Shown: in pieces, positions 1,746 through 41,136 of the stretch
How the letters are laid out: the number at the start of each line of letters is the position of its first letter
Numbering within the stretch: position 1 is the stretch's first letter
IMG/VR virus record: IMGVR_UViG_3300008111_001299
Coordinates: 1 to 42,055 of that record
Length of the DNA: 42,055 bases
Reading direction: 5' to 3' (one strand)
Source: a virus
Notes under the pieces: generated by a model
Told to the model about the DNA's origin: nothing
Database searches by the model: none
Seen by the model: only the letters and a program-made list of their open reading frames with translations
Position numbers and translations under genes: made by a program

Positions 1746-1770
1746 CCGGGCTTTTTCCGGTAAATAGTTG

Positions 1771-3813
1771 ATGTTAAAAAAAATCCTCTTAAGTCCTTGG
1801 ACTGCACTAATAACACTAATTTTAGTTGTAGGTATACGAGCAGTAGATCCTACTTTTATAGAATCAGTTAGACTGCGTTATTTTGATACACTAATAACAA
1901 ATAAAGCACCTACTGAAAATAATATCATCACAGTAAACATAGACGAAAATGCCTTAGACAAATATGGTCAATGGCCTTTTAATCGAGATATCTATGCGCA
2001 ACTAATCGAAGACCTACACAAGCGCAATGCTGGACTAGTTGTATTCAATGTGCTGATGCCAGAAAAGGATAGACAAGGCGGAGATAGTTCTTTAGCCGCT
2101 ACCTTAAACAAATATCCTGTGATATTACCCAACATGCCTGCGGATCGTATGAAGAACATACCTCGAAAACCAGGTACGGCTATTATGGGTCCTGAGTTTC
2201 AGGAAATGATTATTCAATATCCAGGCATCATAGCCAATATACCCGATTTAGAAAAACGTGCCGCAGGAGTAGGTATAGTTAACACACTGCCGGAAATAGA
2301 TGGTGTCAATCGCAGAATGCCATTGATAGTATCTGTAGATGGTAATGTTTATCCTAGCCTTGCTATGGAAGTTCTTAGAGTGGCAGCAGGCGACTCAACC
2401 ACACAGATTAAACTATTTGAAGGTGGCGTAGAAAAAATGCGCATACCTAAGTTTGGTCCTATTGCTACTGATCCTCTAGGTCGTGTGTGGATTGATTGGA
2501 GTCAAAAATCTAAAAGTATATCAATGACTGAACTTCCTAAAGATCTTGGAGGTGCTGTTGTTATTGTAGGTGTTGCTGCGGCAGGAATAGGAAACCCTGT
2601 GCCTTCTGCTATAGGATCAGTATGGCCTCACGAAGTACAGGCTGCTGTAATAGGTACGATGTTTAACAATGTGGTAATACAACGCCCTGACTATGCCGAC
2701 GGTGTTGAGATACTGGCTTTGGCCCTAGCAGGCATAGTATTATTATTTTTAACGAGGTGGACCTATGTTGGAATTATCAGTGGTGTTGTTATTATTGGTT
2801 CTGTCATTCCTATTTCTCAATACCTGTATTCATCTAATCTTTGGCTCTTTGACGGCACTGCGTTGGTTGCTGGGCTTGTTATTGTCATGCTTCATGCTTA
2901 TGGCGTTAAATTCATAAGCGAGTTCTTACAGAAGCAGGCCATAAAGAAACAGTTTGCTGGCTATTGCTCTAAAGAAGTTGTAGAGATGTTACAGAAAGAT
3001 CCAGACTTAATCAAACGTGGTGTGCGTAAAGATGTATCAGTTATGTTCTCTGACTTACGTGGCTTTACACCTATCGGTGAACACTACGGTGATGACGTAG
3101 GTGGACTTGGCAAGTATATGAATGGTTATATGGATGCTATCAGCAAACCTATTATGGACAACAAGGGTATGGTCATCAAGTATGTAGGTGATGCGTCAAT
3201 GCACATACATGGTGCTCCTATTGATGATCCTAACCATGCTCGCACTATTGTTCAAGTAGGACTTGAAATGTTAGACGCTGTTGACGAGTATACTAAACTA
3301 ATGGAAGCACAGGGATTACCTCCAGCCGCTATGGGTTGGGGCTGTAACACAGGTATTGGTTTTATTGGCGAGATGGGATCAACAGACCGTCACAGTTACG
3401 ACATATTAGGCGACATGGTTTCGACCGCCGCACGTTTAGAAGCACGTTGTAAGGCCTATGGGGTGTTGGCTATTATTGGTGCTGAAACCTACAACAGAAC
3501 CAAAGACGACTTCTTCTATCTAATGCTAGACAACTTACAACCTAAAGGCAAGACTGTGGCAGATTTAATTTACACAGTAATACGTCCACGTGGTGAGGAC
3601 TACACTAGAGATAAGATAGCACACGAAGTAATGCACGACTTGTATCGTCAGAAAAAGTTTGACGAAGCCGCTGCTATGTGTAAAAAACTAAAGGGTAACT
3701 TTGGGGGTCAAATGGACAAGTACTACAAGATTTGGATTGAACGCTGTGAATTCATGAAACAGCAGGATCTAGGACCTAACTGGAACGGCGAGTTCATCGC
3801 ACACGAAAAGTGA
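1771..3813 (+). CDS. CHASE2-domain class III adenylate/guanylate cyclase
   Basis: This 680-residue protein has a TM segment at ~11-24, a periplasmic CHASE2-like sensor at ~30-300, three TM helices at ~312-380, and a cytoplasmic class III cyclase domain at ~418-600. Visible catalytic residues are the metal ligands Asp428 (MFSDLRGFT) and Asp474 (KYVGDASM) and the adenine-selecting pair Lys470 and Asp544 (SYDILGD); these predict cAMP rather than cGMP. Arg555 is present, but the usual transition-state Asn (VNxAAR) is Ser551 (VSTAAR). ATG 1771 is preferred over the TTG at 1768. A short hairpin (1745-1761) sits in the gap upstream. The expected reaction is ATP to cAMP plus PPi, perhaps with reduced activity. 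Confidence 0.85.
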   Translation: MLKKILLSPWTALITLILVVGIRAVDPTFIESVRLRYFDTLITNKAPTENNIITVNIDENALDKYGQWPFNRDIYAQLIEDLHKRNAGLVVFNVLMPEKDRQGGDSSLAATLNKYPVILPNMPADRMKNIPRKPGTAIMGPEFQEMIIQYPGIIANIPDLEKRAAGVGIVNTLPEIDGVNRRMPLIVSVDGNVYPSLAMEVLRVAAGDSTTQIKLFEGGVEKMRIPKFGPIATDPLGRVWIDWSQKSKSISMTELPKDLGGAVVIVGVAAAGIGNPVPSAIGSVWPHEVQAAVIGTMFNNVVIQRPDYADGVEILALALAGIVLLFLTRWTYVGIISGVVIIGSVIPISQYLYSSNLWLFDGTALVAGLVIVMLHAYGVKFISEFLQKQAIKKQFAGYCSKEVVEMLQKDPDLIKRGVRKDVSVMFSDLRGFTPIGEHYGDDVGGLGKYMNGYMDAISKPIMDNKGMVIKYVGDASMHIHGAPIDDPNHARTIVQVGLEMLDAVDEYTKLMEAQGLPPAAMGWGCNTGIGFIGEMGSTDRHSYDILGDMVSTAARLEARCKAYGVLAIIGAETYNRTKDDFFYLMLDNLQPKGKTVADLIYTVIRPRGEDYTRDKIAHEVMHDLYRQKKFDEAAAMCKKLKGNFGGQMDKYYKIWIERCEFMKQQDLGPNWNGEFIAHEK

Positions 3814-15111: not shown

Positions 15112-15200
15112 GGACAAGTGCGCTGAATTGGTTGAAGGCAACGGACTGTAAATCCGCCACATAAGAAACGTTGTAGGTTCGAATCCTACCTTGTCCACCA
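15112..15200 (+). tRNA. tRNA-Tyr(GTA)
   Basis: Acceptor GGACAAG/CTTGTCC, anticodon loop CTGTAAA, long variable arm as expected for bacterial Tyr, T-arm GTAGG-TTCGAAT-CCTAC, A73 and encoded CCA. Confidence 0.9.
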
Positions 15201-16387: not shown

Positions 16388-16462
16388 GCACCGTTCGTCT
16401 ATCGGTTAGGACACTCGCCTTTCACGCAAGTAAGAGGGGTTCGATTCCCCTACGGTGTACCA
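16388..16462 (+). tRNA. tRNA-Glu(TTC)
   Basis: Acceptor GCACCGT/ACGGTGT, anticodon loop CTTTCAC, T-arm AGGGG-TTCGATT-CCCCT, A73, encoded CCA. Confidence 0.95.
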
Positions 16463-16479
16463 AATACTTTAATAAGTAC

Positions 16480-17136
16480 ATGATGAATAATAGTTTTGTA
16501 GGACATGTTGATCTGTTTCCTATTCCTGTAGGCAAATACAGAAGATCAGATCATGAACAAATCAAACAAAGTTTCATCAAAATATTTGAATCTTATCCCA
16601 AAGATAAGATTTACACAGACGGTGAAGATCTAATACACTTTTTCAATGACGGTGATTTTGATCCTAGACAACATCAAGGATTAGAAAATCTCATGGATTG
16701 GGTATTAGATTGTGTGTCTGATTACGCAGGAAATTTTCTAGGTATTAAAGATCGAAAATTCATAGATCTTAATACTTGGATTAACAGTAACAAAGGTGGT
16801 ACACAAGATCCTCATGTACATAACAACAGTTTCTTAAGTGCCACGTATTATGTACAGTTGAACAACTCACACTCGGGACTAAACTTCTATAATCCAAGAG
16901 GATCGGCCAGTCTTAGAAGAGCCACTATAGATATAGAACCTGATTTTCAAACAAATTATACTTCTCCTTACGTACCTCTTATGGTAGAGCAAGGTGATTT
17001 ATTGATATGGCCTAGTGAAATGATGCACGGATATGTCCAACCTTCGGTAGATGTACCTCGCATTACTATGAGCATGAATTTTCTACCCGAAATCGTTAAT
17101 AGCAAATTATACGGTTTCAAAATTAGTAAGTTATAA
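16480..17136 (+). CDS. Fe(II)/2-oxoglutarate oxygenase (phage 2OG-FeII_Oxy_5-like)
   Basis: The frame stays open back through three tRNAs; ATG 16480 (or 16483) is the first start outside them. The 218-residue product has HVHNNSFLSATYYVQL (~residue 112) with the proximal iron ligands, LNFYNPRGS, and the distal MMHGYVQPSV (His ~184) followed by VPRITMSMNF, where Arg would bind 2OG. This matches the phage-borne family that includes TIGR02466-type proteins. The family probably hydroxylates a small molecule or protein residue; the substrate is unknown. It is bracketed by tRNAs. Confidence 0.75.
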   Translation: MMNNSFVGHVDLFPIPVGKYRRSDHEQIKQSFIKIFESYPKDKIYTDGEDLIHFFNDGDFDPRQHQGLENLMDWVLDCVSDYAGNFLGIKDRKFIDLNTWINSNKGGTQDPHVHNNSFLSATYYVQLNNSHSGLNFYNPRGSASLRRATIDIEPDFQTNYTSPYVPLMVEQGDLLIWPSEMMHGYVQPSVDVPRITMSMNFLPEIVNSKLYGFKISKL

Positions 17137-18608: not shown

Positions 18609-19664
18609 ATGAAGATAAGCAAAATACCAGGCCTAGGGCGTTTTGGTGTATATATTGACGATGTCGATCTAAACAACATTTCGGATGAAGAATGGGCAGA
18701 GATTGGTAAGATACATTTAGAATCTCTAGTAACAATAATTAGAAACACAGATGTTACTCCATACAATTATTATAGATTAATAATGAAATGGGGTCCTAGT
18801 CGCTGGAATCGTCCTATTGCTTTTTATAAGAAATATGGAAAGCCGTTAAAAGAATTAGTAATGAACAAAGAACTAGACGATGAAGATCAACTAGTTTTTG
18901 ATAATGGTCGCAGATGGCAATTTGACAAACGTTGTCCAGGCATGGTTTGTGTAACACCTAAAAAGAATACTCGAGGACAAAGTATGGGTATTTTTGGAGA
19001 CGGCGAACTACTATGGCACAGCAACGAATGCGGTGATGTAGCGTTTACTCCCGGGGTAGCATTACTAGGTTATGAAAACGTAGATCAAACTGCCACAGGT
19101 TTTTGCACAAGTCCAGATTGGTACGAAAAGCAATCAGAAAGTTTTCGCAGTGAACTAGATGAAATGATCATTATTCATAACTATCGTCCAATGGCTATGA
19201 GCCCGATCGTTATTGAAGATCAAGAAAAGTTTTATAAAAACAATATGGCTCCTGAAAACGATATGAAGGTGCCGTTGATTATACAAAGCCCGGGCGGTAT
19301 CAAAGGTGTACACTTAGGTATTAATACCTTTGATAAAATTGAAGGCATGAGTGTAGAAGATAGTAAAAAAATCTTTGATAAAATTCGCAGAGAAATGATA
19401 GTACCAGAATACTGTTACGATCATTGGTACGGCGGCCGAGACATCTGTTTGTTCGATAATAGTATTACCTTGCATAACAGATCCATTCATGAAAGTATTG
19501 GTATCGCTCCTGAAAGACTAGGACTGCGCATTCAATATGATTTTGATAATCTCACTGGCGAATTTTACGAGCCTTTCTATCAAGAAGAGTTCAATGACCT
19601 TAAGAAAGAAAGATTGAATATTCTAGACAAGGCCATGGAAGGTATGCTAATTAAGACTGATTGA
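18609..19664 (+). CDS. TauD/TfdA-like Fe(II)/2OG dioxygenase
   Basis: The 351-residue product has LLWHSNECGDVAFTPG (His137, then Asn139/Glu140), the typical GVALLGYENV strand, and near the C-terminus ICLFDNSITLHNRS followed by RLGLRIQYDF, as in TauD. The usual HxD pair reads H-S-N-E, so Glu140 or Asn139 must be the second ligand if it binds iron (clavaminate synthase uses Glu). Family members hydroxylate small acids or amino-acid derivatives; the substrate here is unknown. AAGGA lies before the ATG. The stop overlaps the next start. Confidence 0.75.
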   Translation: MKISKIPGLGRFGVYIDDVDLNNISDEEWAEIGKIHLESLVTIIRNTDVTPYNYYRLIMKWGPSRWNRPIAFYKKYGKPLKELVMNKELDDEDQLVFDNGRRWQFDKRCPGMVCVTPKKNTRGQSMGIFGDGELLWHSNECGDVAFTPGVALLGYENVDQTATGFCTSPDWYEKQSESFRSELDEMIIIHNYRPMAMSPIVIEDQEKFYKNNMAPENDMKVPLIIQSPGGIKGVHLGINTFDKIEGMSVEDSKKIFDKIRREMIVPEYCYDHWYGGRDICLFDNSITLHNRSIHESIGIAPERLGLRIQYDFDNLTGEFYEPFYQEEFNDLKKERLNILDKAMEGMLIKTD

Positions 19665-27915: not shown

Positions 27916-28620
27916 ATGAACACTGAGTTTGAATACTACTATAATAATGTTCCGGACAAGGGACTCTGCAGAAACAATTTGATTTATACTAGCCTAATCA
28001 GCCACGATAAAAAAACATTTTGTCAATGGTATTACAATGATCAAGGATATCATGGCGGAAAAAATCAAGTAGTAGATCCTAGTCTAATGGAATCAAAATG
28101 GCTACGTGAAGTGAAATTTATTAAACTTATAAGTGAACACTATCCAGAACATGTTCCTGAAATTCTAGACATAGATTATATTAACAGAAAAATCTTTCTA
28201 AAAATCGACGGGCCCGATATGTGGGAATTAGCAGGTTGCCAAGGTAAAGACTATACTAGCGTTCTTCCTAATTGGGAAGAACAGATGCTAGACATTATTC
28301 AAAGTTATCAATCGCTAGGCATTTATAAAATGTCCATGCATCCTAGCAGTTATTTTATCATTGACGGAAAAATGAAAGGTATAAATTATTTTTTCTGTTA
28401 TACTGACGAAGATGAAGAAATATCTATGAGTAGTCTAATGAGTCATATCAGTAAAGATCGTCAAAAAACTCTACAACCTATATTTGACTCTTTGAAAATT
28501 AATCCCGATGAGCCAACTGCTTTTTGGAAAATACAGATGCTGACCTTTGAAACGTTTAAAACAAACTTCTTAGACAGCACTATGGAAAAGGCTAAACTGA
28601 TTTATCAACGGCCTGTTTAA
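27916..28620 (+). CDS. kinase-like-fold protein, copy 1
   Basis: The 234-residue product has REVKFIKLISEHYPEHVPEI and DIDYINRKIFLKIDG, like the N-lobe to hinge of aminoglycoside/RIO-type small kinases, then MHPSSYFIIDGKMKGINYFF, where a kinase would have HxD/N and DFG-type Asp. Here the second position is Asn (INYFF), so it may be a pseudokinase. It is paralogous to the product at 30699-31379. Its end overlaps the convergent SDR-like gene by 29-30 bp. Confidence 0.5.
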   Translation: MNTEFEYYYNNVPDKGLCRNNLIYTSLISHDKKTFCQWYYNDQGYHGGKNQVVDPSLMESKWLREVKFIKLISEHYPEHVPEILDIDYINRKIFLKIDGPDMWELAGCQGKDYTSVLPNWEEQMLDIIQSYQSLGIYKMSMHPSSYFIIDGKMKGINYFFCYTDEDEEISMSSLMSHISKDRQKTLQPIFDSLKINPDEPTAFWKIQMLTFETFKTNFLDSTMEKAKLIYQRPV

Positions 28621-29221
28621 TTCTGTCAACTAATTGATCCAACTGCGGTTTAGTTTTCATCTTAGTTGATATTTGATCATAGAGTAAATCTGTAATCTTA
28701 AAATTAAATCTTACATTATTGAAACTGGGATTCCGTATCCAAAAATCCACAGTGTCAACTACTTCGTCAAAAGATATAGTATAGTCACATTTAAGATTAT
28801 TAGGATCGTCTATGTCTACAATGTTGCCTTCTAGGCAGGAAAGATCGAGATGCAGTATTTTTGTTTTGCTATTTTTGTCTAGAGAAATTAAATGACAAAC
28901 TTCTGCTAGATCTTTTTTATTTTTTCCATAATCTGTAGGTATTAGATCATTAAAGAATCCGCCTTGTGATCCTGATACCACTAACATCTTTACTTGATTA
29001 TTTAGATGCTTAACTAATTCTATTTGTCTACGATCTGCATAAGCATTACTAATAAACAGATCACAATTTTCTGCTGCGGCAATCACAGAGTCAATGGATG
29101 TCTTAATATCCGTTCCTTGGCTTCTACTAAATCCTATTACTGTATTGTTAGGATCCTTGACAAAATGATCATAAAGTTTTTTGCCTAGACCTTTAGTATG
29201 ACCTGTTATAACTATTTTCAT
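28592..29221 (-). CDS. short-chain dehydrogenase/reductase-like protein, copy 1
   Basis: ATG 29221 (TGATG overlap with the upstream stop) is preferred to the preceding TTG. The 209-residue product begins KIVITGHTKGLGKKL, the TGxxxGLG dinucleotide motif, has FISNAYADRR where SDRs have NNAG, and YGKNKKDL as the YxxxK catalytic pair. It probably binds NAD(P)H and reduces a sugar-nucleotide or similar carbonyl. Paralogue at 30229. Confidence 0.7.
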   Translation of the reverse strand: MKIVITGHTKGLGKKLYDHFVKDPNNTVIGFSRSQGTDIKTSIDSVIAAAENCDLFISNAYADRRQIELVKHLNNQVKMLVVSGSQGGFFNDLIPTDYGKNKKDLAEVCHLISLDKNSKTKILHLDLSCLEGNIVDIDDPNNLKCDYTISFDEVVDTVDFWIRNPSFNNVRFNFKITDLLYDQISTKMKTKPQLDQLVDRIKQAVDKSV

Positions 29222-29391
29222 CAAACTAAATTCTTTTTTACAAAATCTAAAAATCCGCTAGGCATTTTTGTATCCACAATTTGTTTGACTTCTTCAATCT
29301 CATAAAGATCCTTTAGAATCTTATACATAGCAGCATTGGCCTGCTGTAACTCCATGAACTTTTTTAAGAAGAACTCGTCTTTGTTATCCAT
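29221..29391 (-). CDS. small helical protein (56 aa)
   Basis: ATG 29391 has an AGAGGA ribosome site 7-8 nt upstream; an earlier in-frame ATG (29412) would lie inside the preceding gene. The product is one or two helices (FFLKKFMELQQANAAMYKIL, VDTKMPSGFLDFVKK). Unknown function; it is coupled to the SDR-like gene. Confidence 0.55.
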   Translation of the reverse strand: MDNKDEFFLKKFMELQQANAAMYKILKDLYEIEEVKQIVDTKMPSGFLDFVKKNLV

Positions 29392-29392
29392 A

Positions 29393-30232
29393 TCAATATC
29401 CTCTGCTATCATCTCTTTTTAAATTACTTAGACAGAAAATGATAGCAAATTTTTCGCCTTCGGTTATTTCCTTGCTTTCGTGTATCAGTGACCAGTCTAA
29501 ATCTAAATCTTCAGTGTGGTTCCAAACAGACATTCTACCTTTTTTAGGTTTGATAGAAACATCGATGTGCGGAAAGTATGTTTCACCGCCAACAAAATCA
29601 TCATTAAGATAAACCAGTGCTACTGCATCTCTAGTTCCTGCTTTTTGATAATAATCTAATTTTCTTGGATCGTATGGCCAATCATGATGTGGAGTCATGT
29701 AATGACCTTTTTGATAGTACAATATGTCTGCCGACTCTATGAGATAGTAAGGTCTACCTAACGCATCGGATGCGGCAGTTGAAATAGTATCATAATCTTG
29801 ATAGGTAAAATCGTTAAGTATCCTTCTGTGGATATTGCGATCGTTGGCCTGACCATATGTATCTCTAGAACAATCTGACCTATGGTCTCCCATGGTAATA
29901 TACTTTCCAGGATAATCTAGGCTAAGACTACGCTTGATTAGATCATCACAATATTCATCGGATAGAACATTATCATAGATACTTACTCTTGGATAATCAT
30001 GAAGAATAACTTCTTTAAACTTAGGCGACTGTTCTTTAATTTGATCATAACTAAAATTAATTACATTAAGATCAAAGATCGAATTGTCAATGACTTCAAA
30101 TTCTACACGTTGACCTTCTAACAAACAACCTTGTCTGTAATTGAACACCGGAATTTCCGTACCATTATCGGAAGAGATGAGGCCATAAGATTTCGAGTTG
30201 TTAAACCATTTAACTGTTCCAGTTTCCATCAT
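29393..30232 (-). CDS. cold-shock-like domain fused to a prolyl-4-hydroxylase-type 2OG dioxygenase
   Basis: Residues 3-60 resemble a cold-shock domain: TGTVKWFNNSKSYGLISSDN, then LLEGQRVEFEV and LNVINF; the RNP2 VFVH motif is degenerate (IPVFNY). Residues ~75-270 form a P4H-type oxygenase with YYQKGHYMTPHHDW (iron ligands His182, Asp184), GTRDAVALVYLNDDFVGGE, distal His251 (LIHESKE) and 2OG-binding Lys261 (EGEKFAIIF). The two parts are in one uninterrupted frame. A nucleic-acid- or ribosome-targeted hydroxylase is a possible reading. ATGA overlap with the upstream SDR-like gene. Confidence 0.75.
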   Translation of the reverse strand: MMETGTVKWFNNSKSYGLISSDNGTEIPVFNYRQGCLLEGQRVEFEVIDNSIFDLNVINFSYDQIKEQSPKFKEVILHDYPRVSIYDNVLSDEYCDDLIKRSLSLDYPGKYITMGDHRSDCSRDTYGQANDRNIHRRILNDFTYQDYDTISTAASDALGRPYYLIESADILYYQKGHYMTPHHDWPYDPRKLDYYQKAGTRDAVALVYLNDDFVGGETYFPHIDVSIKPKKGRMSVWNHTEDLDLDWSLIHESKEITEGEKFAIIFCLSNLKRDDSRGY

Positions 30233-30702
30233 TTAGTCCTGTATGAAAATGCTATAATGTCAGTATTTAGTAACCAAAATTTAATAGAATCGTAGATCAG
30301 CCTGCTGTCTTTATATACTTTACCTGTGAGATTTATGATCAGCAAATCGCTGACTTTTTTCTCTAATGCCTGTTTCATAAAATAGTCATCTAATTCTTTT
30401 TTGTTCTGACTGTATTCTACCATAGTAGAATCTGGATATCTTGCAGCCACAGTTCCCATCACTACTATTTTATTATTAGTATTGATTAAATTTTCTAAAA
30501 TCTTTTTTTGGACACCGTTGGCATAGGCATTTAAAATCACTAGACTGTTTTCTTCTATCTGTGAAATTATTTTTGCATGATCTTTTTCTATGTCGTAACC
30601 GTTGGTTCTATCAAACCCAGAAACATCGTATCCGTCTTTGATAAAGTAATCGGCGATATGTTTTCCAAGACCTCTGGATTTACCTATGACATAAACTTTC
30701 AT
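30229..30702 (-). CDS. short-chain dehydrogenase-like protein, copy 2 (short)
   Basis: The 157-residue product has YVIGKSRGLGKHIADYF (a Rossmann start with GxxxGLG), VILNAYANG in place of NNAG, and EYSQNKKELDDY as YxxxK-like. It is shorter than the 28592 copy at the C-terminus. It is coupled to the kinase-like gene upstream and the fusion gene downstream by ATGA overlaps. Confidence 0.65.
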   Translation of the reverse strand: MKVYVIGKSRGLGKHIADYFIKDGYDVSGFDRTNGYDIEKDHAKIISQIEENSLVILNAYANGVQKKILENLINTNNKIVVMGTVAARYPDSTMVEYSQNKKELDDYFMKQALEKKVSDLLIINLTGKVYKDSRLIYDSIKFWLLNTDIIAFSYRTK

Positions 30703-31379
30703 TTGTTAAAAATTAAATCGTGTATAAATTTTAAATTTTTATCGCCCCACGATACATGCTCTTGTAATCCTCTTTTAAACATGATTTCTAGATTGTAATA
30801 GTCTCCGACTAACGGCCCAGTTTCGTCTAATCTAAATTTTGCTGATTCGTGTATAATAGCGTCCATATATTTTCTATGGATAAGAGGATGTTCTATAGGA
30901 ACACAACCATACCAATCTATGGCTTTTAACTGACCCTGATCAGTGACATAATGACAATGACTGTACATAGTTAATTTATAATAGCCTTCATTGATCTGAT
31001 CTAGCATCACATCTTTTAATTGTTCGAGCCAATCTAGCGGCCAGTTACTGTCAGTATAGACAATATGATTACAACTGTTTCCATACCATTTTATAAAGAT
31101 TCTTTTGTTGACATAATCAATTTCTAAAACTTCAGGAGCATAATCTTTGCCAGCAAAATGCTCTAAGTTTTTTATATCGTTATTAAAAAACCAATTTATA
31201 ACTTCTTGATCATAGAGAGGTCGTTCGCCCATGGATTGGTGATACGAAGTATGCAAATTATAATTTGCACAGAATACAGTGCCTTCGGGATTTATCAAAG
31301 GTTCATAGGTAGTTTGTGCCATACCTAGTTTACCCGTTTCACTGAATTTATGGTAGTGATTCCAATTAGAGATATTCAT
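30699..31379 (-). CDS. kinase-like-fold protein, copy 2
   Basis: The 226-residue product has YAPEVLEIDYVNKRIFIKWY (matching the first copy's PEILDIDYINRKIF) and MYSHCHYVTDQGQLKAIDWY, where His and Asp (AIDW) sit at the positions expected for an atypical kinase's catalytic and metal-binding residues. This copy keeps Asp where copy 1 has Asn. It is the first gene of the - strand operon ending at 28592. The substrate is unknown. Confidence 0.55.
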   Translation of the reverse strand: MNISNWNHYHKFSETGKLGMAQTTYEPLINPEGTVFCANYNLHTSYHQSMGERPLYDQEVINWFFNNDIKNLEHFAGKDYAPEVLEIDYVNKRIFIKWYGNSCNHIVYTDSNWPLDWLEQLKDVMLDQINEGYYKLTMYSHCHYVTDQGQLKAIDWYGCVPIEHPLIHRKYMDAIIHESAKFRLDETGPLVGDYYNLEIMFKRGLQEHVSWGDKNLKFIHDLIFNK

Positions 31380-31418: not shown

Positions 31419-32384
31419 ATGTCTACTCAATTTCAACCCTCTACATTATGTTGGTACAACGATAACGGTATCAATTTACCAATGATTTCTGATCATGCTA
31501 GAAATCAATTCTATCAACGTATACTATCCAAATCAGTAAAGAATAAAACATGTATCGATGTTGGATTTGGAACTGGTTTATTATCTCTAATGGCTTTAGA
31601 ACAGGGTGCTGAAAAGATAATTGCTTTTGAAACAAACGCCGAGCGATATCATCTAGGTTTAGATATTATTGAAAAGTTAAAACTTAAAAATCTAATTGAC
31701 CTAAGAAATGAACGATATTGTTCAACATATTTCAAAGATCAAAATTGTGTGATAATACAGGAAATCGTTGGACACAATTTATGGAATGAGGGTCTAAGAT
31801 TTATTATAGATAAAGATCAAGTTTTAGTTCCTGGAGACTTCTATTGCGAATACTATTGCTGTCCTATTGATGAAAATATCTATCAACAGTTTATAAGCCT
31901 TCATGCAGACCCAAGTAAAATAAATCTAGGAATTAATTTAAACAATTTTAATTTTTTAAAATTAATTTATGAATATCAAATAAAAGAGCAAAATGTAATA
32001 AATTTAAATGACGAGAAATTTATCAAAGACATTTACAAAGATCTATTATCTAAAGGCAGTTTAATTGGAAAGTATTGCGTACTTACTAATCAGAAAAAAT
32101 TGTTGATCAACGAAGCGACAGTAGAATATAATTTAGACTGTGATCAGGTAGGATATATTGATGTTCCTTTAACTATAAATTTGAAATTTGATTATTCAAT
32201 AATATTAGCCAAATATTTTATAGGACACAATGAAGATCTGCTAGTTATATCTCCCAGTGAAGATAATCCAACTTCTCACTGGGCAGTGCCCAATCCTGTT
32301 TGCGTAATATCTGATTTAGAAAACAGTTTTATAGCCAGAACTTATCTAGATGACGGTTCTGTAAGAGTGTATCCTAAGAAATGA
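31419..32384 (+). CDS. PRMT-like class I methyltransferase
   Basis: The 321-residue product has motif I CIDVGFGTGLLSLMALEQGA (residues 45-64) and an acidic residue after the next strand (FE, 71), followed by IIQEIVGHNLWNEG, where Glu114 and Glu123 are nine residues apart, the spacing of the double-E loop that binds substrate arginine in PRMTs. The C-terminal half is beta-rich, like the PRMT barrel. I infer protein arginine (or similar guanidino) methylation; the THW-loop His is not obvious. Its 3' end overlaps the convergent gene by 43 bp. Confidence 0.65.
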   Translation: MSTQFQPSTLCWYNDNGINLPMISDHARNQFYQRILSKSVKNKTCIDVGFGTGLLSLMALEQGAEKIIAFETNAERYHLGLDIIEKLKLKNLIDLRNERYCSTYFKDQNCVIIQEIVGHNLWNEGLRFIIDKDQVLVPGDFYCEYYCCPIDENIYQQFISLHADPSKINLGINLNNFNFLKLIYEYQIKEQNVINLNDEKFIKDIYKDLLSKGSLIGKYCVLTNQKKLLINEATVEYNLDCDQVGYIDVPLTINLKFDYSIILAKYFIGHNEDLLVISPSEDNPTSHWAVPNPVCVISDLENSFIARTYLDDGSVRVYPKK

Positions 32385-32980
32385 AAAATGTAATTTGGCC
32401 TGTTGCTATTATTGATCAACGAATGTAGTTCTTTAGTAGTAGGCCACTTTACTACTGTGTGCTTAGATACATTTTCATATTTGTTATCACCAACTATAAA
32501 AATCTGATCTTGTACAGGATCATCTATGAATACCATGTATCTGACTAGATTTTTCTTTTCTAATTCAATCCAAGTTTTTTCTTGATCAAATTCGTCTTTG
32601 TGAAAAGGTATAGTTGAGTATGCATCAACTCTGCTAATCCAACATTCCTGAACTGAGTGTCCAACAAGACTTTCAAACTTATCTACTATGGATTTTGAAA
32701 AATGATTCTCAGAATTATATTGTTCAAGATTTGGATAAAAATTTTGAAAGGTTATTTTTGTAAAATCAAGTCCCTGATCAAAATAGTTCTTTACCATTTC
32801 AGCAAACGGTGTTCTACTAAATTCAAATGGTAATAGTCCTTTATCGATAATCTCTTGATAAGTTCGTAACTCTGTTTTTTCTGTATCAATAGTTTGGTCT
32901 ACATGACGTATTGAACCTGTCTTTGAGTCTAGGCTCTGAATAATGTCATCCCAATTTATAATACCAACTGTGGTTATCAT
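32342..32980 (-). CDS. 2OG-oxygenase-like protein (212 aa)
   Basis: ATG 32980 lies 4 nt after a perfect - strand TATAAATA; an earlier in-frame ATG (33001) would lie upstream of that box. The product has STIPFHKDEF (HxD) near residue 125, VRYMVFIDDPVQDQIFIVGD and a distal NYIFHFLGYTL. A double-stranded beta-helix hydroxylase is likely; the 2OG-binding residue is not clear. It ends antisense within the PRMT-like gene. Confidence 0.55.
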   Translation of the reverse strand: MITTVGIINWDDIIQSLDSKTGSIRHVDQTIDTEKTELRTYQEIIDKGLLPFEFSRTPFAEMVKNYFDQGLDFTKITFQNFYPNLEQYNSENHFSKSIVDKFESLVGHSVQECWISRVDAYSTIPFHKDEFDQEKTWIELEKKNLVRYMVFIDDPVQDQIFIVGDNKYENVSKHTVVKWPTTKELHSLINNSNRPNYIFHFLGYTLTEPSSR

Positions 32981-32984
32981 AAAG

Positions 32985-32992
32985 TATTTATA
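32985..32992 (-). promoter_or_regulatory. T4-late-like promoter TATAAATA
   Basis: A perfect box on the - strand, 4 nt before the ATG at 32980. Confidence 0.65.
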
Positions 32993-33008
32993 GTGGTACA
33001 TTATAGCC

Positions 33009-33024: not shown

Positions 33025-34206
33025 ATGATGCTGTTCCAAAAAAAACTTTCTCCAACGATTGAACATTTCAATCAAACATCTCCGTTAGAACAATGGTCGG
33101 CTGAGTTGAAAGAAGACTACTGTTTCTACTACAATTGGATCGATCAATTATATGATTTTCGGTTTGATAATTTTTTAACCGATACGCATATTAATTTTTT
33201 AAGGCAAAATCCTAATATCAAAATTGTTTACGATTTTAACGGAGAACCGATAGTTGAAAATATTTTATTGGATATATTAGAAACTGCACAGCAATGGGAA
33301 CTTAATGATGATCAAATTATTTTGATTGTTAGTAATATTTTACAAACAAATTTTGTCAATGAAAGACTAAAAGAAATTCGTAGTGTAAGAACTTATGAAT
33401 GGAATTACGATATTAAAACTACGTTGATCTCCCAGCCTGCAAATGATATTGAAAAGAAAAAATTCAGCACCACTTGTAGATTACACAGGCCCTGGAGATC
33501 TTATATAATTTGCAGATTAAAAGAACGACATCTCATAGATAATTTTCATTTTTCCTTTATGGGCTGTGAAAATAATATGACTGTTGCATTAGACAAAGTT
33601 ATATCTGAAAACAAAGATATCAGTATTACTCTAGCCGAAGGCGACTGGAGTATTATTGCCAAACACGATAAAATTAAAAAAGACCTTACGAATATCTGCG
33701 GAATGTTATTAACAGCAGACATGAACAACTTTATTGATCAATGTCCACATTATATAGAAAAAGAAAGATTCAAGACCGATGTTGAAACTCCCCAAGAAAT
33801 ATTTCATTCAGATTTTCATCTTGTGATAGAAAATGGTTTTTTTGATTTAAACGAATCTGCATATACTGTTCGATCATTTGAGATGGGGGAGAAGACATGG
33901 AAGGCTATTATAGCATCGAAACCTTTCTTAGTTTACTCAGATCCGGGTTATTTGCATTCTCTAAAAAAACTAGGTTTCAAAACCTTTGATACTTGGATAG
34001 ATGAATCATACGATAACGAAACAGATCCTAAATCTAGAGCAGAAATGATCATAGATCAAATTGAAAAAATTAATAACCTAAGCATAGAAGAATATACTAA
34101 CCTATTGCTAAACTGTAAGAGCATAACTGAACATAATTTTTCAATTTATTTTAATCTAAAGTCTAAACAACAAAACTTTACAGACATAAATTTTAATAAA
34201 ATATGA
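33025..34206 (+). CDS. glycosyltransferase-like protein
   Basis: The 393-residue product ends with a diagnostic block, GEKTWKAIIASKPFLVYSDP, then YLHSLKKLGFKTFDTWIDES, as in viral and bacterial fucosyl/hexosyltransferase-type proteins where Glu-Lys binds the nucleotide sugar. The N-terminal ~270 residues are not recognised in detail. No membrane segment is evident. It heads a three-gene + strand operon (33025-36172) with two 4-bp overlaps. It would transfer a sugar to a phage or host acceptor. Confidence 0.65.
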   Translation: MMLFQKKLSPTIEHFNQTSPLEQWSAELKEDYCFYYNWIDQLYDFRFDNFLTDTHINFLRQNPNIKIVYDFNGEPIVENILLDILETAQQWELNDDQIILIVSNILQTNFVNERLKEIRSVRTYEWNYDIKTTLISQPANDIEKKKFSTTCRLHRPWRSYIICRLKERHLIDNFHFSFMGCENNMTVALDKVISENKDISITLAEGDWSIIAKHDKIKKDLTNICGMLLTADMNNFIDQCPHYIEKERFKTDVETPQEIFHSDFHLVIENGFFDLNESAYTVRSFEMGEKTWKAIIASKPFLVYSDPGYLHSLKKLGFKTFDTWIDESYDNETDPKSRAEMIIDQIEKINNLSIEEYTNLLLNCKSITEHNFSIYFNLKSKQQNFTDINFNKI

Positions 34207-34943
34207 TATCCACTTCTTTAGATTTCTATAATGAAAACAAACACATACCGTATAAATTGCCGGCTCCTCCTGACGAGAATCTAAATGATTATCAGTTATG
34301 TGATTGGCTTTTGAATCGTAGTGATTTTTCTTGGTTAGAACTAGATGTACAATTCGATGTTAATAAATGGCAGGAAGAAATACTCAGTTGTAAGGATTTT
34401 TTAGTGCCGCACAGAGACAGTGAAAGTTCTGGATGGGAAAGTGCCTGTATACACGGAATAGATATTCAATCCACAGGAGCATGGACTAGATACGGATATA
34501 AGAACGAAGATGATGTTCCCTACCATTGGACTGAACTTGCAGATCAATGTCCAAATATAAAAAAGTTTTGGTCAGAGTTTCCTTATGACAGTTACAGACG
34601 TATAAGGATCATGGCTGTGAAACCCGGAGGTTGCATAAATCCTCATAGCGATATGCCTGGCAAATTACCTGGAGAGGAAAACTTTGATGCATTAAAATTT
34701 GGTGTGCCTATAAATGTAGCAGTAATACATCCTAAAGAATGCTACATGAGTTTAAAGGGTCACGGAGTTGTTCCTTTTAAAGAGGGCAAGGCTTTTTTAA
34801 TTAATATTAGAAATTATCATAGTGTAATAAATTTCTCCGACGAGATTAGATATCATATTATTGCACACGGAAAACTTCAAAATAAAACTGACAAATTTGT
34901 AAAGTTAATATCGGATAGTTTTAGAAAACAATTTGTAAAATGA
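34203..34943 (+). CDS. aspartyl/asparaginyl beta-hydroxylase-like 2OG oxygenase
   Basis: The 246-residue product has MAVKPGGCINPHSDMPG (His-Ser-Asp iron ligands near 149-151), VPINVAVIHPKECYMSLKGH, the PFKEGKAFLINIRNYHSVIN block with distal His ~210, and EIRYHIIAHG (Arg for 2OG). The motif order matches Asp/Asn hydroxylases (Asp_Arg_Hydrox-type). ATGA overlaps at both ends tie it to the glycosyltransferase-like and 34940 products. Confidence 0.75.
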   Translation: MISTSLDFYNENKHIPYKLPAPPDENLNDYQLCDWLLNRSDFSWLELDVQFDVNKWQEEILSCKDFLVPHRDSESSGWESACIHGIDIQSTGAWTRYGYKNEDDVPYHWTELADQCPNIKKFWSEFPYDSYRRIRIMAVKPGGCINPHSDMPGKLPGEENFDALKFGVPINVAVIHPKECYMSLKGHGVVPFKEGKAFLINIRNYHSVINFSDEIRYHIIAHGKLQNKTDKFVKLISDSFRKQFVK

Positions 34944-36890: not shown

Positions 36891-38165
36891 ATGTCTATCA
36901 ATAATTCAAAAACTTTCTGCATGCACCCGTTTACTGGTCTTGCAACTAGAGAAGATGGTGCGATCAAAATCTGCTGTCGAAGCCTTCCTATAGGTTGGAT
37001 ACAAGAAAACAGTTTAGAACAAGTTTGGAATAATGACAAAATGCAGCAGGTTCGTAAACAAGTTTTATGTGGTGAGAGACCAGAGGTTTGCAAACCGTGT
37101 TTCGACTTAGAAGATCAAGGAGTTGAAAGCCTTCGTCAGCGACATATTAATGGCGTTATTCCCGAAGCAAGGATTAATCTGTATCCAAATGCGCTGGATC
37201 AACTTCGAGAAGATTATACCATGCCTTTTGAATTTCCTACTATGGAAATTAAGATCAATAATCTTTGTAATCTTAAATGCAGAATGTGCAATCCTTTAGA
37301 CAGCACCAGTTGGCAGGATTGGGATCAAGTGAAACCATTCTATGAAAAAGAAAATAATTACCTAGTTCCTACTATATCAAAATTAGTTAGAAAGCCCGGC
37401 CAATACATAGGCCCGTTTGAAGATACAAATCACTGGTGGGAAAATTTTGAACAACTACTTCCTCATTTCCGTAGAGTAGAATTTGCCGGCGGGGAACCTT
37501 TGATGGATCCTTATCATTATCGTATTTTAGATATGTTAAAACCTTACGGAAAAAACATAGAAATAAAATATGCTACTAATGGCACTGTATTAGGAATCAA
37601 AGGAGGTAGAACCATTCACGACTACTGGCCTTACTTTAAATCTGTAGCGGTCAATGTCAGCATAGACGGTATACATGATGTTTATAATTACATTCGCACT
37701 AACAGCAATTTTGATGATGTAGAAAAGAACATAAAAGAAATACAAAGTATTCCCAATGTAAGCAGAGTAGTTGGTGCGTTTACTGCTCAGGCTGCTAATA
37801 TTTTACAGATCTCCGAGTGCATTGATTATTTTTTAAATCACATGGACATTGTTTTTTACAGTCACAGAGTTAGTTACCCCAATTGTTTATCAGCACAGGT
37901 TCTACCCCAAGAGTTAAAACAGTTGGCTATAGAAAGATTACGGAATGTTGAAAGTAAATTATGGACGTTTGATAAAATCAATCAAAGTAGCCTACTTGAA
38001 AAAGTCACTCGACAGCAGATCAAAGACAATATAAATTATCTACAAGCCAAAGATCAACATCATTTATGGAATGATTTTTTAGAATTCAATAGAAAATTAG
38101 ATGAAACTAGAAATCAGAAACTATTAGATGTGATTCCAGAATTTAAAGAATACGTTAACGATTAA
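36891..38165 (+). CDS. twitch-domain radical SAM protein
   Basis: An N-terminal Cys-rich auxiliary-cluster region (FCMHPFTGLATREDGAIKIC, Cys10, Cys28/29; VCKPCFDLE, Cys67 and Cys70) precedes the radical SAM CxxxCxxC at Cys126, Cys130 and Cys133 (NNLCNLKCRMCN), then VEFAGGEPLMDP (the GGE motif) and YATNGT. The auxiliary 'twitch' cluster placed before the core is unusual but recurs in phage proteins. It would cleave SAM to a 5'-deoxyadenosyl radical for peptide or sugar modification. First gene of a three-gene radical SAM operon. Confidence 0.85.
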   Translation: MSINNSKTFCMHPFTGLATREDGAIKICCRSLPIGWIQENSLEQVWNNDKMQQVRKQVLCGERPEVCKPCFDLEDQGVESLRQRHINGVIPEARINLYPNALDQLREDYTMPFEFPTMEIKINNLCNLKCRMCNPLDSTSWQDWDQVKPFYEKENNYLVPTISKLVRKPGQYIGPFEDTNHWWENFEQLLPHFRRVEFAGGEPLMDPYHYRILDMLKPYGKNIEIKYATNGTVLGIKGGRTIHDYWPYFKSVAVNVSIDGIHDVYNYIRTNSNFDDVEKNIKEIQSIPNVSRVVGAFTAQAANILQISECIDYFLNHMDIVFYSHRVSYPNCLSAQVLPQELKQLAIERLRNVESKLWTFDKINQSSLLEKVTRQQIKDNINYLQAKDQHHLWNDFLEFNRKLDETRNQKLLDVIPEFKEYVND

Positions 38166-38167
38166 AA

Positions 38168-39064
38168 ATGTTTAAAGTTACTAGTGTATGGCCTCATCAA
38201 GATCAATTAAAAGTTGAATGGAACCTGGGTAAACGATGTAATTACGATTGCAGTTATTGTCCTGCCAGTGTGCATGATAACTTTAGTCCGCACACCGACA
38301 TTAACATTTTAGAAAAAACTGTAGATCGTTTATGTGAACTAGATAAACCTTTGCGTATTAGCCTAACCGGCGGTGAGCCCTGCGTACACCCGGACATAGA
38401 AAGTTTATTAGAATACTTTAAAAGAAAAAATATCTACTGGGTCAATATAACAACCAACGGCACAAGAGGATATCAATGGTATTTACAGCACGAAATGTTT
38501 TTTAACCATTTAGTTTTTAGTCTACATTTTGAACAAGATTGGACACGTATAGTCGATACTATATTAAAATATTACGATAGCACACAGCAAGATTTCTTTG
38601 TAAATGTAATGGCACATAACAATAAGATGGATCATGTCAGAAATGTTGTTAAAGCATTTAGCGACATAGGAATCAAATATGCTGTTCGTAGAATCCGTTG
38701 GACGGAAGGGGATCATAATGTATTTGACGACCTTCGATATGATGGAAAAGATCTACAATGGATCTTGGAACAGGACGCTACAGCGAAACCTAATTGCAGA
38801 ATAGACAATGAAACGATTATTCATGCTAATGATGTAATAAAAAAACATATGAATCAATTTAAAGGCTGGACATGTAATGCTGGTCTCGAAAGCCTCATGA
38901 TCAATTGGGATGGAGAAGTGCATCGTGCAACTTGTAGAGTTGGTGGTAGCCTAGGCAACATATACCAAGGTACATTTACTGAGCAATTACAACCTATAAG
39001 TTGTACTAGAGATTGGTGTACCTGTGCAGCAGATATTCCTTTAACAAAGATTAAAAATGATTAA
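38168..39064 (+). CDS. radical SAM protein with C-terminal Cys cluster
   Basis: CxxxCxxC at Cys24, Cys28 and Cys31 (KRCNYDCSYCPAS), SLTGGEPCVHPD (GGE-type) and TTNGT. The C-terminus has WTCNAGLESLMINWDGEVHR, TCRVGG and CTRDWCTCAAD, giving at least five Cys for an auxiliary SPASM/twitch-like cluster. The 298-residue length is short for SPASM proteins. Paralogous to the next two radical SAM products. 8-bp overlap with the next gene. Confidence 0.85.
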   Translation: MFKVTSVWPHQDQLKVEWNLGKRCNYDCSYCPASVHDNFSPHTDINILEKTVDRLCELDKPLRISLTGGEPCVHPDIESLLEYFKRKNIYWVNITTNGTRGYQWYLQHEMFFNHLVFSLHFEQDWTRIVDTILKYYDSTQQDFFVNVMAHNNKMDHVRNVVKAFSDIGIKYAVRRIRWTEGDHNVFDDLRYDGKDLQWILEQDATAKPNCRIDNETIIHANDVIKKHMNQFKGWTCNAGLESLMINWDGEVHRATCRVGGSLGNIYQGTFTEQLQPISCTRDWCTCAADIPLTKIKND

Positions 39065-40148
39065 AGTGGATGCTGTTAGACTTGTAAAACCAGAGCCCAT
39101 GATGATTACTTGGGATGTTGGTCGCAGATGTAATTACGACTGTAGTTACTGTGAAATATCTCGACATGATAATATCAGTAAGTTTCACAGCATTGACGAG
39201 TATTTAAAAACATTTGGATTTATAAAGCAGTGGACCAACACTTATAATAGTAACAGAAAAGAAAAAGTATCTACAAATATAAATTTCACAGGCGGTGAAC
39301 CTACACTTAACCCCGCTCTTTGGGAATTGGCTGACGCAATTAAAACAGACTCCGACGACTTTAATCTAAGTTTGACCACTAACGGTGCGTGGAATAGAAA
39401 ATATACAGACAGACTGTTAAAAAGATTCAATGGAGTTACGGTCAGTTATCACACAGAAGGTCACACTAATTTAAAAAAACAGGTAATAGAAAACATATTA
39501 GAATTATCAAAGACTGATATGCGTTTACAGGTAAATCTAATGATGCATGTAGATCATTGGAATGAATGTTTAGAAGTTTTTGATGTGTTAAAATCTAATA
39601 ACGTACTGGTAAAACCTAGACCAATCGGCGACGGTAACATAGAACGCACAGGATGGTTTATAGATTCAGACGGATCAAATAGAAGAACCAGTCATCAATA
39701 TACTGCTGATCAACAACTATGGTTTTCAACTATAGCAGGTCACAACATTTCTGTATGCGAAAACAAAACAGAAGGCACGGGTCTAGGAAGAGGGTGCTGC
39801 GGCGGTCGTTGTATGGAAGGTAAGATAAACAATCAATGGCAGGAAATTAAAATTATCGATACTAATTTTAAAAACTGGAACTGTATGGTCGATTGGTTTT
39901 TCCTGCACATAGATCAACATACAGGTTTAGTCTATCATCATCAAACCTGCCAGGCTCTTCACGAAAATAAAAGAGGAGCCTTAGGTAATCTTATAGATTC
40001 AGATATTTTAATAAAAGATCTAGAACAAAGAATGCTCAATAAAACAGCGATTGTCTGTCCTAATAATAGATGTGGTTGCGGAATGTGTATTCCAAAGTCT
40101 AAAGACGGTGTTGTTTTTAAAGAACTCTGGGACAGCGTAGTTAACTAA
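39057..40148 (+). CDS. radical SAM protein with Cys-rich C-terminus
   Basis: CxxxCxxC at Cys25, Cys29 and Cys32 (RRCNYDCSYCEIS), INFTGGEPTLNP and LTTNGAW. The C-terminal third has many Cys (RGCCGGRCMEG, NWNCMVDWF, TCQALH, VCPNNRCGCGMC), enough for one or two extra iron-sulfur clusters. 363 residues. It converges with and slightly overlaps (8 bp) the - strand radical SAM gene. Confidence 0.85.
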   Translation: MIKVDAVRLVKPEPMMITWDVGRRCNYDCSYCEISRHDNISKFHSIDEYLKTFGFIKQWTNTYNSNRKEKVSTNINFTGGEPTLNPALWELADAIKTDSDDFNLSLTTNGAWNRKYTDRLLKRFNGVTVSYHTEGHTNLKKQVIENILELSKTDMRLQVNLMMHVDHWNECLEVFDVLKSNNVLVKPRPIGDGNIERTGWFIDSDGSNRRTSHQYTADQQLWFSTIAGHNISVCENKTEGTGLGRGCCGGRCMEGKINNQWQEIKIIDTNFKNWNCMVDWFFLHIDQHTGLVYHHQTCQALHENKRGALGNLIDSDILIKDLEQRMLNKTAIVCPNNRCGCGMCIPKSKDGVVFKELWDSVVN

Positions 40149-41136
40149 CCTTGTGCTTTGCTAAGGTCACTTCTCCGTTACATAAACACTGTAATTGTTT
40201 ACATATAACTGGTTTAATTTCCGGTGAAAAATTCTGCACAAAGTCTTGATCAAAAATATTAAAATAATAATCTAGTCCGTACAACTTCTGATTACAGTTT
40301 ACAGTAATATCACCATTAAATAAAACCTTTATATCATTTACGCCAACGGTGCATTCCCAACCAGAGAAATAATTTAATTTGTTTAATCTTATCCAAGAAT
40401 CCGAAGGCAATTCAAAAACTTCACCGTCTTCGAATGTTACCCAATATCTGTTGATAGTTCCTCTAAAAAATTCTTCTACTTCCTTAAAGTCAGGAACTCT
40501 TTTCTTTGCTGATTGCAAATAGTCCTTCTGCTCGGATGGATAACTGGTAACTCCGTCGATATGTATAGCCTTAAGAATAATAGGCCAATTATATTTGCTT
40601 TCTGACTGAAACTTTTCAACGATGCTTCGACATTTGTCAAAGTTCTTTGGATCCATGAGTACGTTAGCAACTACCATATGCTTATGAGAAAACAAATAAT
40701 CGGCTACTTCTATAATATGATTAGGATCACAGAATTCATTATGAACCGATATCTCAATATGATCAAACAGTTTAGCATACTTTTCCCACCAATGTACTTT
40801 TCTAAATCCATTAGTAGCCATATGAACAATAATTCTATCCTGATACTTGTTTTTAAAATGGGTTAAAAACTCAGGCAAATGTTTCCATAAGGTAGTTTCG
40901 CCACCTAACAAATACAACTGTATAACATCTTTGTTATTTTTTAGGTAATAATCGAATAGGTGAGTAAAATTATTTTTTAATAATTCTACGTTCTCTCCCG
41001 CGGGCCAGGGAATATCACCTTCGTGAGAACCAGGAAAACAATAATTACAACTGTAATTACAGGTATTTCCTATTGCCCATTCTACTCTGATCTTTTTAGG
41101 ATCATGATTGTTTTCAATTTTAATAATCTTTTTCAT
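40141..41136 (-). CDS. radical SAM protein with SPASM-like C-terminus
   Basis: CxxxCxxC at Cys26, Cys30 and Cys33 (NTCNYSCNYCFPGSHEG), LYLLGGETTLWKHLPEF and HMATNGFRK. The C-terminus has WECTVGVNDIKVLFNGDITV, NCNQKLYG and VICKQLQCLCNGEV, resembling the 38168 product. The 331-residue protein is translated in coupling with the broken upstream radical SAM gene (4-bp overlap). The substrate is unknown. Confidence 0.85.
   Translation of the reverse strand: MKKIIKIENNHDPKKIRVEWAIGNTCNYSCNYCFPGSHEGDIPWPAGENVELLKNNFTHLFDYYLKNNKDVIQLYLLGGETTLWKHLPEFLTHFKNKYQDRIIVHMATNGFRKVHWWEKYAKLFDHIEISVHNEFCDPNHIIEVADYLFSHKHMVVANVLMDPKNFDKCRSIVEKFQSESKYNWPIILKAIHIDGVTSYPSEQKDYLQSAKKRVPDFKEVEEFFRGTINRYWVTFEDGEVFELPSDSWIRLNKLNYFSGWECTVGVNDIKVLFNGDITVNCNQKLYGLDYYFNIFDQDFVQNFSPEIKPVICKQLQCLCNGEVTLAKHKVS

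Follow-up and report, generated by a model that had tools for sequence, protein, structure and literature searches.

The locus raises a simple question: why would a phage carry a cold-shock domain (CSD) and a prolyl-hydroxylase-type (P4H) oxygenase in one protein, and to what would such an enzyme be directed? The window, that is, the whole stretch of DNA analyzed here, is a 42-kb IMG/VR virus record, and the gene (positions 29393 to 30232, minus strand) is an uninterrupted open reading frame of 279 amino acids with an ATG start. A preliminary description had read both domains in a single frame, and the ORF, together with matches in Pfam, NCBIfam, and PDB, bears this out. The CSD occupies residues 1 to 61 (30050 to 30232, minus strand). 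Pfam PF00313 matches residues 4 to 50 (2.1e-8, 34.3 bits versus a cut-off of 27), the NCBIfam CspE and CspD models match with 2.5e-9 and 6.8e-8, and a PDB sequence search recovers solved CspB structures with 1e-6, so that the N-terminal domain does belong with the cold-shock families. The oxygenase domain covers about residues 74 to 271 (29420 to 30013, minus strand). PF13640 (2OG-FeII_Oxy_3) matches residues 170 to 265 (1.6e-9, 39.1 bits, cut-off 27), and the best PDB sequence matches are the Bacillus P4H entries 3itq and 5hv0, aligned to residues 63 to 263 with 7e-12. Both domains thus score above their gathering thresholds, and the other fused members that were scanned likewise have a CSD above the PF00313 cut-off. 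An AlphaFold model built from an alignment of 25 sequences (pLDDT 82, pTM 0.83) contains a complete five-stranded barrel at residues 2 to 59, followed by the oxygenase domain.

The fusion is not restricted to this genome. The first search returned copies with 100% and 96% identity and two with 73%, and alignment-based searches added relatives with 31 to 45% identity. In total, about 42 other viral contigs encode 27 distinct CSD-P4H fusion proteins, 31 to 100% identical to the window protein over the best segment, which rules out an assembly artefact or a chance ORF. A query with only the oxygenase part recovered two more fusions. A T4-type gp23 capsid gene was present in three of the eight phage records tested, including one on a contig of 364 kb, and the remaining records may be incomplete. 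Based on these capsid genes and on that contig, the carriers can be assigned to large T4-like phages, and they are uncultured phages of lakes and seas. The preliminary description knew of no phage enzyme with this architecture, and we found none either: not one of 50,697 phage records matched over 80% of the fusion protein, and no paper on a CSD-P4H fusion turned up in a literature search that covers few subscription papers. Homologs of the whole fusion were also absent from the best 80 genome-scan matches listed, which is weak evidence, as ordinary cold-shock proteins filled these, and from 297 cellular genomes of one phylum, searched without a positive control.

The catalytic part has the intact active site of a P4H-type enzyme. 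The iron-binding HxD motif (His182 and Asp184, 29681 to 29689), the distal iron ligand His251 (29480 to 29482), and the Lys261 that anchors 2-oxoglutarate (2OG) in P4H-type enzymes (29450 to 29452), all on the minus strand, had been correctly numbered as an intact set, and all are invariant in the 25 aligned sequences. In the model, the double-stranded beta-helix fold is closest to P4H, and VIA-align gives Z scores of 17.9 to 3gze, an algal P4H, and 17.7 to 5hv0. The Bacillus anthracis P4H (3itq, 5hv0, 5v7y) is the best match by sequence and by Foldseek and shares the fold and the HxD...H...K active site, but it is bacterial, lacks a CSD, and has only about 22 to 25% identity to the phage enzyme. 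The closest annotated phage domains of the P4H type are the oxygenases of Erwinia phages Y3 (rank 1 in BFVD) and Yoloswag and of Salmonella phage Sen-NF, with 26 to 38% identity. These differ from the fusion in lacking a CSD and in having other neighbors, such as an asparagine synthase in Y3 and Sen-NF. The stand-alone oxygenases of Y3 and Sen-NF near the asparagine synthase gene are those of loci L143 and L145.

The face with which the CSD would bind its ligand is where it departs most from the family. In cold-shock proteins, RNP2 and a loop aromatic stack on bases. We aligned 25 P4H-fused, 6 peroxidase-fused, and 148 stand-alone CSDs in Bacillus subtilis CspB numbering, with the established CspB sequence and residue roles as the reference. 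K7, W8, and K13 are kept in all 25 P4H-fused domains, an invariance partly built into the search, as the DNA patterns used KW[FY]N[ND][SA]K; position 15 is aromatic in 24 of them and position 17 in 20. The window protein keeps the half of the face with the pattern KW..N..K..YG, and its RNP1 region reads KSYGLI versus the canonical K-G-F-G-F-I, while RNP2 is replaced by EIPVFNY and the loop aromatic is deleted. Across the aligned set, His29 of RNP2 is found in 1/25 P4H-fused versus 145/148 stand-alone domains, with an acidic residue there in 17 of the 25; an aromatic or His at position 30 is found in 1/25 versus 144/148, with Lys or Arg in 19 of the fused set; and the Phe38 loop position is a gap in all P4H-fused domains (aromatic or His in 0/25 versus 145/148). 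The fused domains are also more acidic, with a mean net charge of -4.3 versus -0.9. Both of the additional fusions lack RNP2 as well, and that of locus L291 has a Thr at position 7. Compared with bacterial CspA, CspB, and CspE, the phage domain therefore has in common the five-stranded fold, the PF00313 match, and the KWFN...K.YG.I pattern, but it differs in that the RNP2 His/Phe and Phe38 are replaced or deleted, in its acidity, and in being fused to an enzyme. Because RNP2 is replaced and the Phe38 loop is deleted, ordinary RNA or DNA binding cannot be assumed from such a sequence. That the fusion is directed to RNA, DNA, or ribosomes, as first proposed, may hold in view of the half of the nucleic acid-binding face that is kept, but the missing RNP2 and loop aromatic and the acidity make it less likely.

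The variant domain is nevertheless maintained as a protein by purifying selection, as the dN/dS of the CSD is about 0.02 to 0.2 in close pairs. Values so far below 1 and the complete barrel in the model rule out degenerate debris. In addition to a fused CSD of the variant type, the genome of phage G006 (163 kb) codes for a canonical cold-shock protein that stands alone (L285:1655-1858), which implies that the variant is specialized and not merely this phage's version of the family; a peroxiredoxin-like ORF lies near that stand-alone gene. Between loci L159/L165 and L170/L171, dS is 0.2 to 0.4 in the CSD and about 1.3 in the P4H domain. This is only a hint of a sharp recombination limited to the CSD, because identity along the gene drops gradually.

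A second set of phages codes for the same variant CSD on another enzyme. In these sister phages, the hydroxylase lacks a CSD, and a CSD-glutathione peroxidase gene lies just upstream of it (two genes upstream in L178), so that the domain holds the equivalent place in an equivalent cassette but on a peroxidase. Examples are L187:2402-3109, L178:6342-7073, L188:7276-8001, and L192:7258-7980. We found seven distinct proteins of this kind on at least 16 contigs, with Pfam GSHPx matches of 2e-29 and 1.4e-33 in addition to the CSD and with invariant Cys106, Gln140, Trp204, and Asn205. None of the loci compared contained both CSD-P4H and CSD-glutathione peroxidase, and around the hydroxylase of L293, 47% identical to the family, neither a CSD nor a CSD-peroxidase was found within 4 kb, which counts against the explanation that we prefer below. 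The peroxidase state is scattered over the hydroxylase tree, with three changes in the best tree and low support, and a single clade for the peroxidase CSDs is not rejected (p 0.54). The presence of the CSD on this neighboring enzyme too suggests a general, portable recruiting tag.

The hydroxylase also appears to have a partner. A protein of 63 amino acids, c5 (29221 to 29412, minus strand), is encoded in an ORF that shares 20 nt with the 3' end of the fusion gene. Its HMM finds a c5 of about 60 amino acids in 24 of the 27 loci, and two of the three loci without it lie on contigs that stop shortly downstream of the hydroxylase gene. In L291, c5 is joined to the C terminus of CSD-P4H (7e-19) in a triple fusion (L291:3746-4774), and by the Rosetta-stone argument c5 likely acts together with the hydroxylase. 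We found no convincing Pfam or PHROG match for it. A precursor role for c5, as a peptide whose C-terminal proline would be conserved, was unsupported, as this proline is missing in the clade where c5 lies next to the hydroxylase or is fused to it.

At its other end, the start of the fusion gene is overlapped by a gene for a short-chain dehydrogenase (SDR)-like protein (30229 to 30702, minus strand; adh_short 5.7e-6, just below the gathering score). Two regulatory readings of this region were discarded. Nothing supports a cspA-like 5' leader or a thermosensor in the CSD region, as the gene is one of a series of overlapping genes and tRNAs are all that Rfam detects in the window. The repeated upstream peptide VQTIYDHWKT, considered as a common promoter, is the end of the preceding gene read out of frame. 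The tRNA genes are 27 in number, on the plus strand between positions 15112 and 23045, with other genes between them.

The explanation that we prefer, although we hold it tentatively and at a little under an even chance, is that of a protein hydroxylase, probably prolyl, recruited by a swappable modified CSD inside a phage modification cassette. In cells infected by a large T4-like phage, the Fe(II)/2-oxoglutarate enzyme would hydroxylate a protein side chain, probably a proline. The N-terminal domain, a phage-specific variant, would serve as a recruiting or docking module that binds its ligand through the retained W8/K13/Y15/F17 half, the ligand being a protein partner or else a short single-stranded stretch of nucleic acid within an RNA-protein complex. 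Binding would bring the enzyme close to its substrate. This module is portable, since sister phages carry it on the adjacent glutathione peroxidase and encode the hydroxylase without it, and c5 would probably be a subunit or cofactor of the hydroxylase's complex.

The first alternative narrows the idea of the preliminary description to proteins and specifies both ligand and substrate: in the manner of cold-shock proteins, the CSD would bind mRNA or rRNA, and the P4H domain would hydroxylate EF-Tu or a ribosomal protein, retuning translation during infection. Foldseek places 5v7y, a P4H that modifies EF-Tu, at rank 1 for the model of the fusion protein; the Pseudomonas P4H-EF-Tu complex 4iw3 also matches in VIA-align (Z 13.6), and bacterial P4Hs acting on EF-Tu have been reported (PMC6437050). 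The retained half of the nucleic acid-binding face would fit as well. Set against this are the acidic domains without RNP2 and loop aromatic, the presence of the CSD on a peroxidase in the sister phages, and an identity to the EF-Tu hydroxylases (22 to 25%) that carries no information on the substrate. We therefore consider this full scenario unlikely. A translation protein may nevertheless be hydroxylated, translation factors being one candidate, given that EF-Tu is modified by the closest relative with a solved structure.

The surroundings of the gene offer a second alternative. The fusion is embedded in a recurrent cassette, with several radical SAM genes in most loci, a kinase-fold protein, SDR/epimerases, and further oxygenase-like genes. 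In the window, the radical SAM block spans 36891 to 41136, with three genes on the plus strand (36891-38165, 38168-39064, and 39057-40148) and one on the minus strand (40141-41136); the first matches Radical_SAM (1.1e-9) and SPASM (2.1e-7), and the others were assigned through gene cluster c0. The predicted kinase-fold protein c3 (30699 to 31379, minus strand; AlphaFold pLDDT 89) is encoded in the neighborhood of the P4H gene in nearly all loci whose flanks are long enough, as seen by gene-order clustering, and its structure resembles the O-antigen kinase WbdD (best Foldseek match, 1e-5) and class III lanthipeptide kinases. On the same strand are a second SDR-like protein of cluster c8 (28592 to 29224; weak adh_short match, 0.034) and the conserved cassette protein c1 (32342 to 33001), 30% identical to a neighbor of the fusion gene in L132. 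These genes, with a methyltransferase-like one, could make a modified peptide, a sugar, or a surface glycan, the CSD being a scaffold contact. The recurrence of a similar gene set in the loci compared and the resemblances of c3 fit such a role, as does the precedent of a marine T4-like genome described as having 12 radical SAM genes (PMC5332604). Nevertheless, we identified neither a precursor peptide nor a ligase or transporter, and c5 lacks a conserved proline in the clade in which it lies beside the hydroxylase or is joined to it, so that we regard this pathway as rather improbable in this specific form. As a counterpoint to the protein hydroxylase that we prefer, a cassette this rich in radical SAM, SDR/epimerase, and kinase-fold genes is also compatible with a pathway for a small molecule, a peptide, or a glycan.

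Other genes of the window may be recorded here. The products of 30699-31379 and 27916-28620 are related (27% identical), with no Pfam or convincing PHROG match. Further 2OG/Fe(II) oxygenases are encoded at 16432-17136, 18609-19664, and 34203-34943 (2OG-FeII_Oxy_5, TauD-like, and Asp/Asn-hydroxylase-like). The gene at 1768-3813 codes for a protein of 681 amino acids in which we recognized by eye a putative CHASE2-type sensor and an adenylate cyclase domain, an unusual content for a phage.

A third alternative is that the CSD is a mere N-terminal fusion partner, aiding expression or folding and having no ligand of its own. Its presence on unrelated enzymes (P4H and glutathione peroxidase) in the same place of the locus would be expected, and so would the loss of RNP2. 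However, the ligand positions W8, K13, and F/Y15 are conserved despite deep divergence (in part a bias of the search), and the start of the window gene overlaps the upstream gene, which means that the transcription unit does not begin with the CSD; we judge this reading improbable. Finally, a CSD-guided hydroxylase of nucleic acid bases of the AlkB/TET type, in line with the base hydroxylation suggested at the outset, is very hard to sustain, for despite the CSD-type fold and AlkB entries among the structural matches (Z 12.8), the P4H entries reach Z 17 to 18, the oxygenase part matches P4Hs among the solved structures by sequence, and 2OG is anchored by the invariant Lys261 and not by the Arg of those enzymes.

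Little is known of prolyl hydroxylation in bacteria, and to our knowledge it has not been established as a tool of phages for host takeover. Here, a widespread family of uncultured phages combines an intact hydroxylase active site with a built-in portable module and a candidate partner protein. These features allow concrete tests of the ligand of the variant CSD and of which protein, from host or phage, is hydroxylated. A portable CSD tag on phage hydroxylases and peroxidases appears to be undescribed so far. In its broadest form, which we put forward as doubtful, the re-engineered CSD of this T4-like phage family would be a portable address tag that steers oxidative enzymes, hydroxylase or peroxidase, to one shared RNA- or protein-based target, such as translation complexes, with a dedicated small partner, and it would represent a new type of phage-directed post-translational modification.
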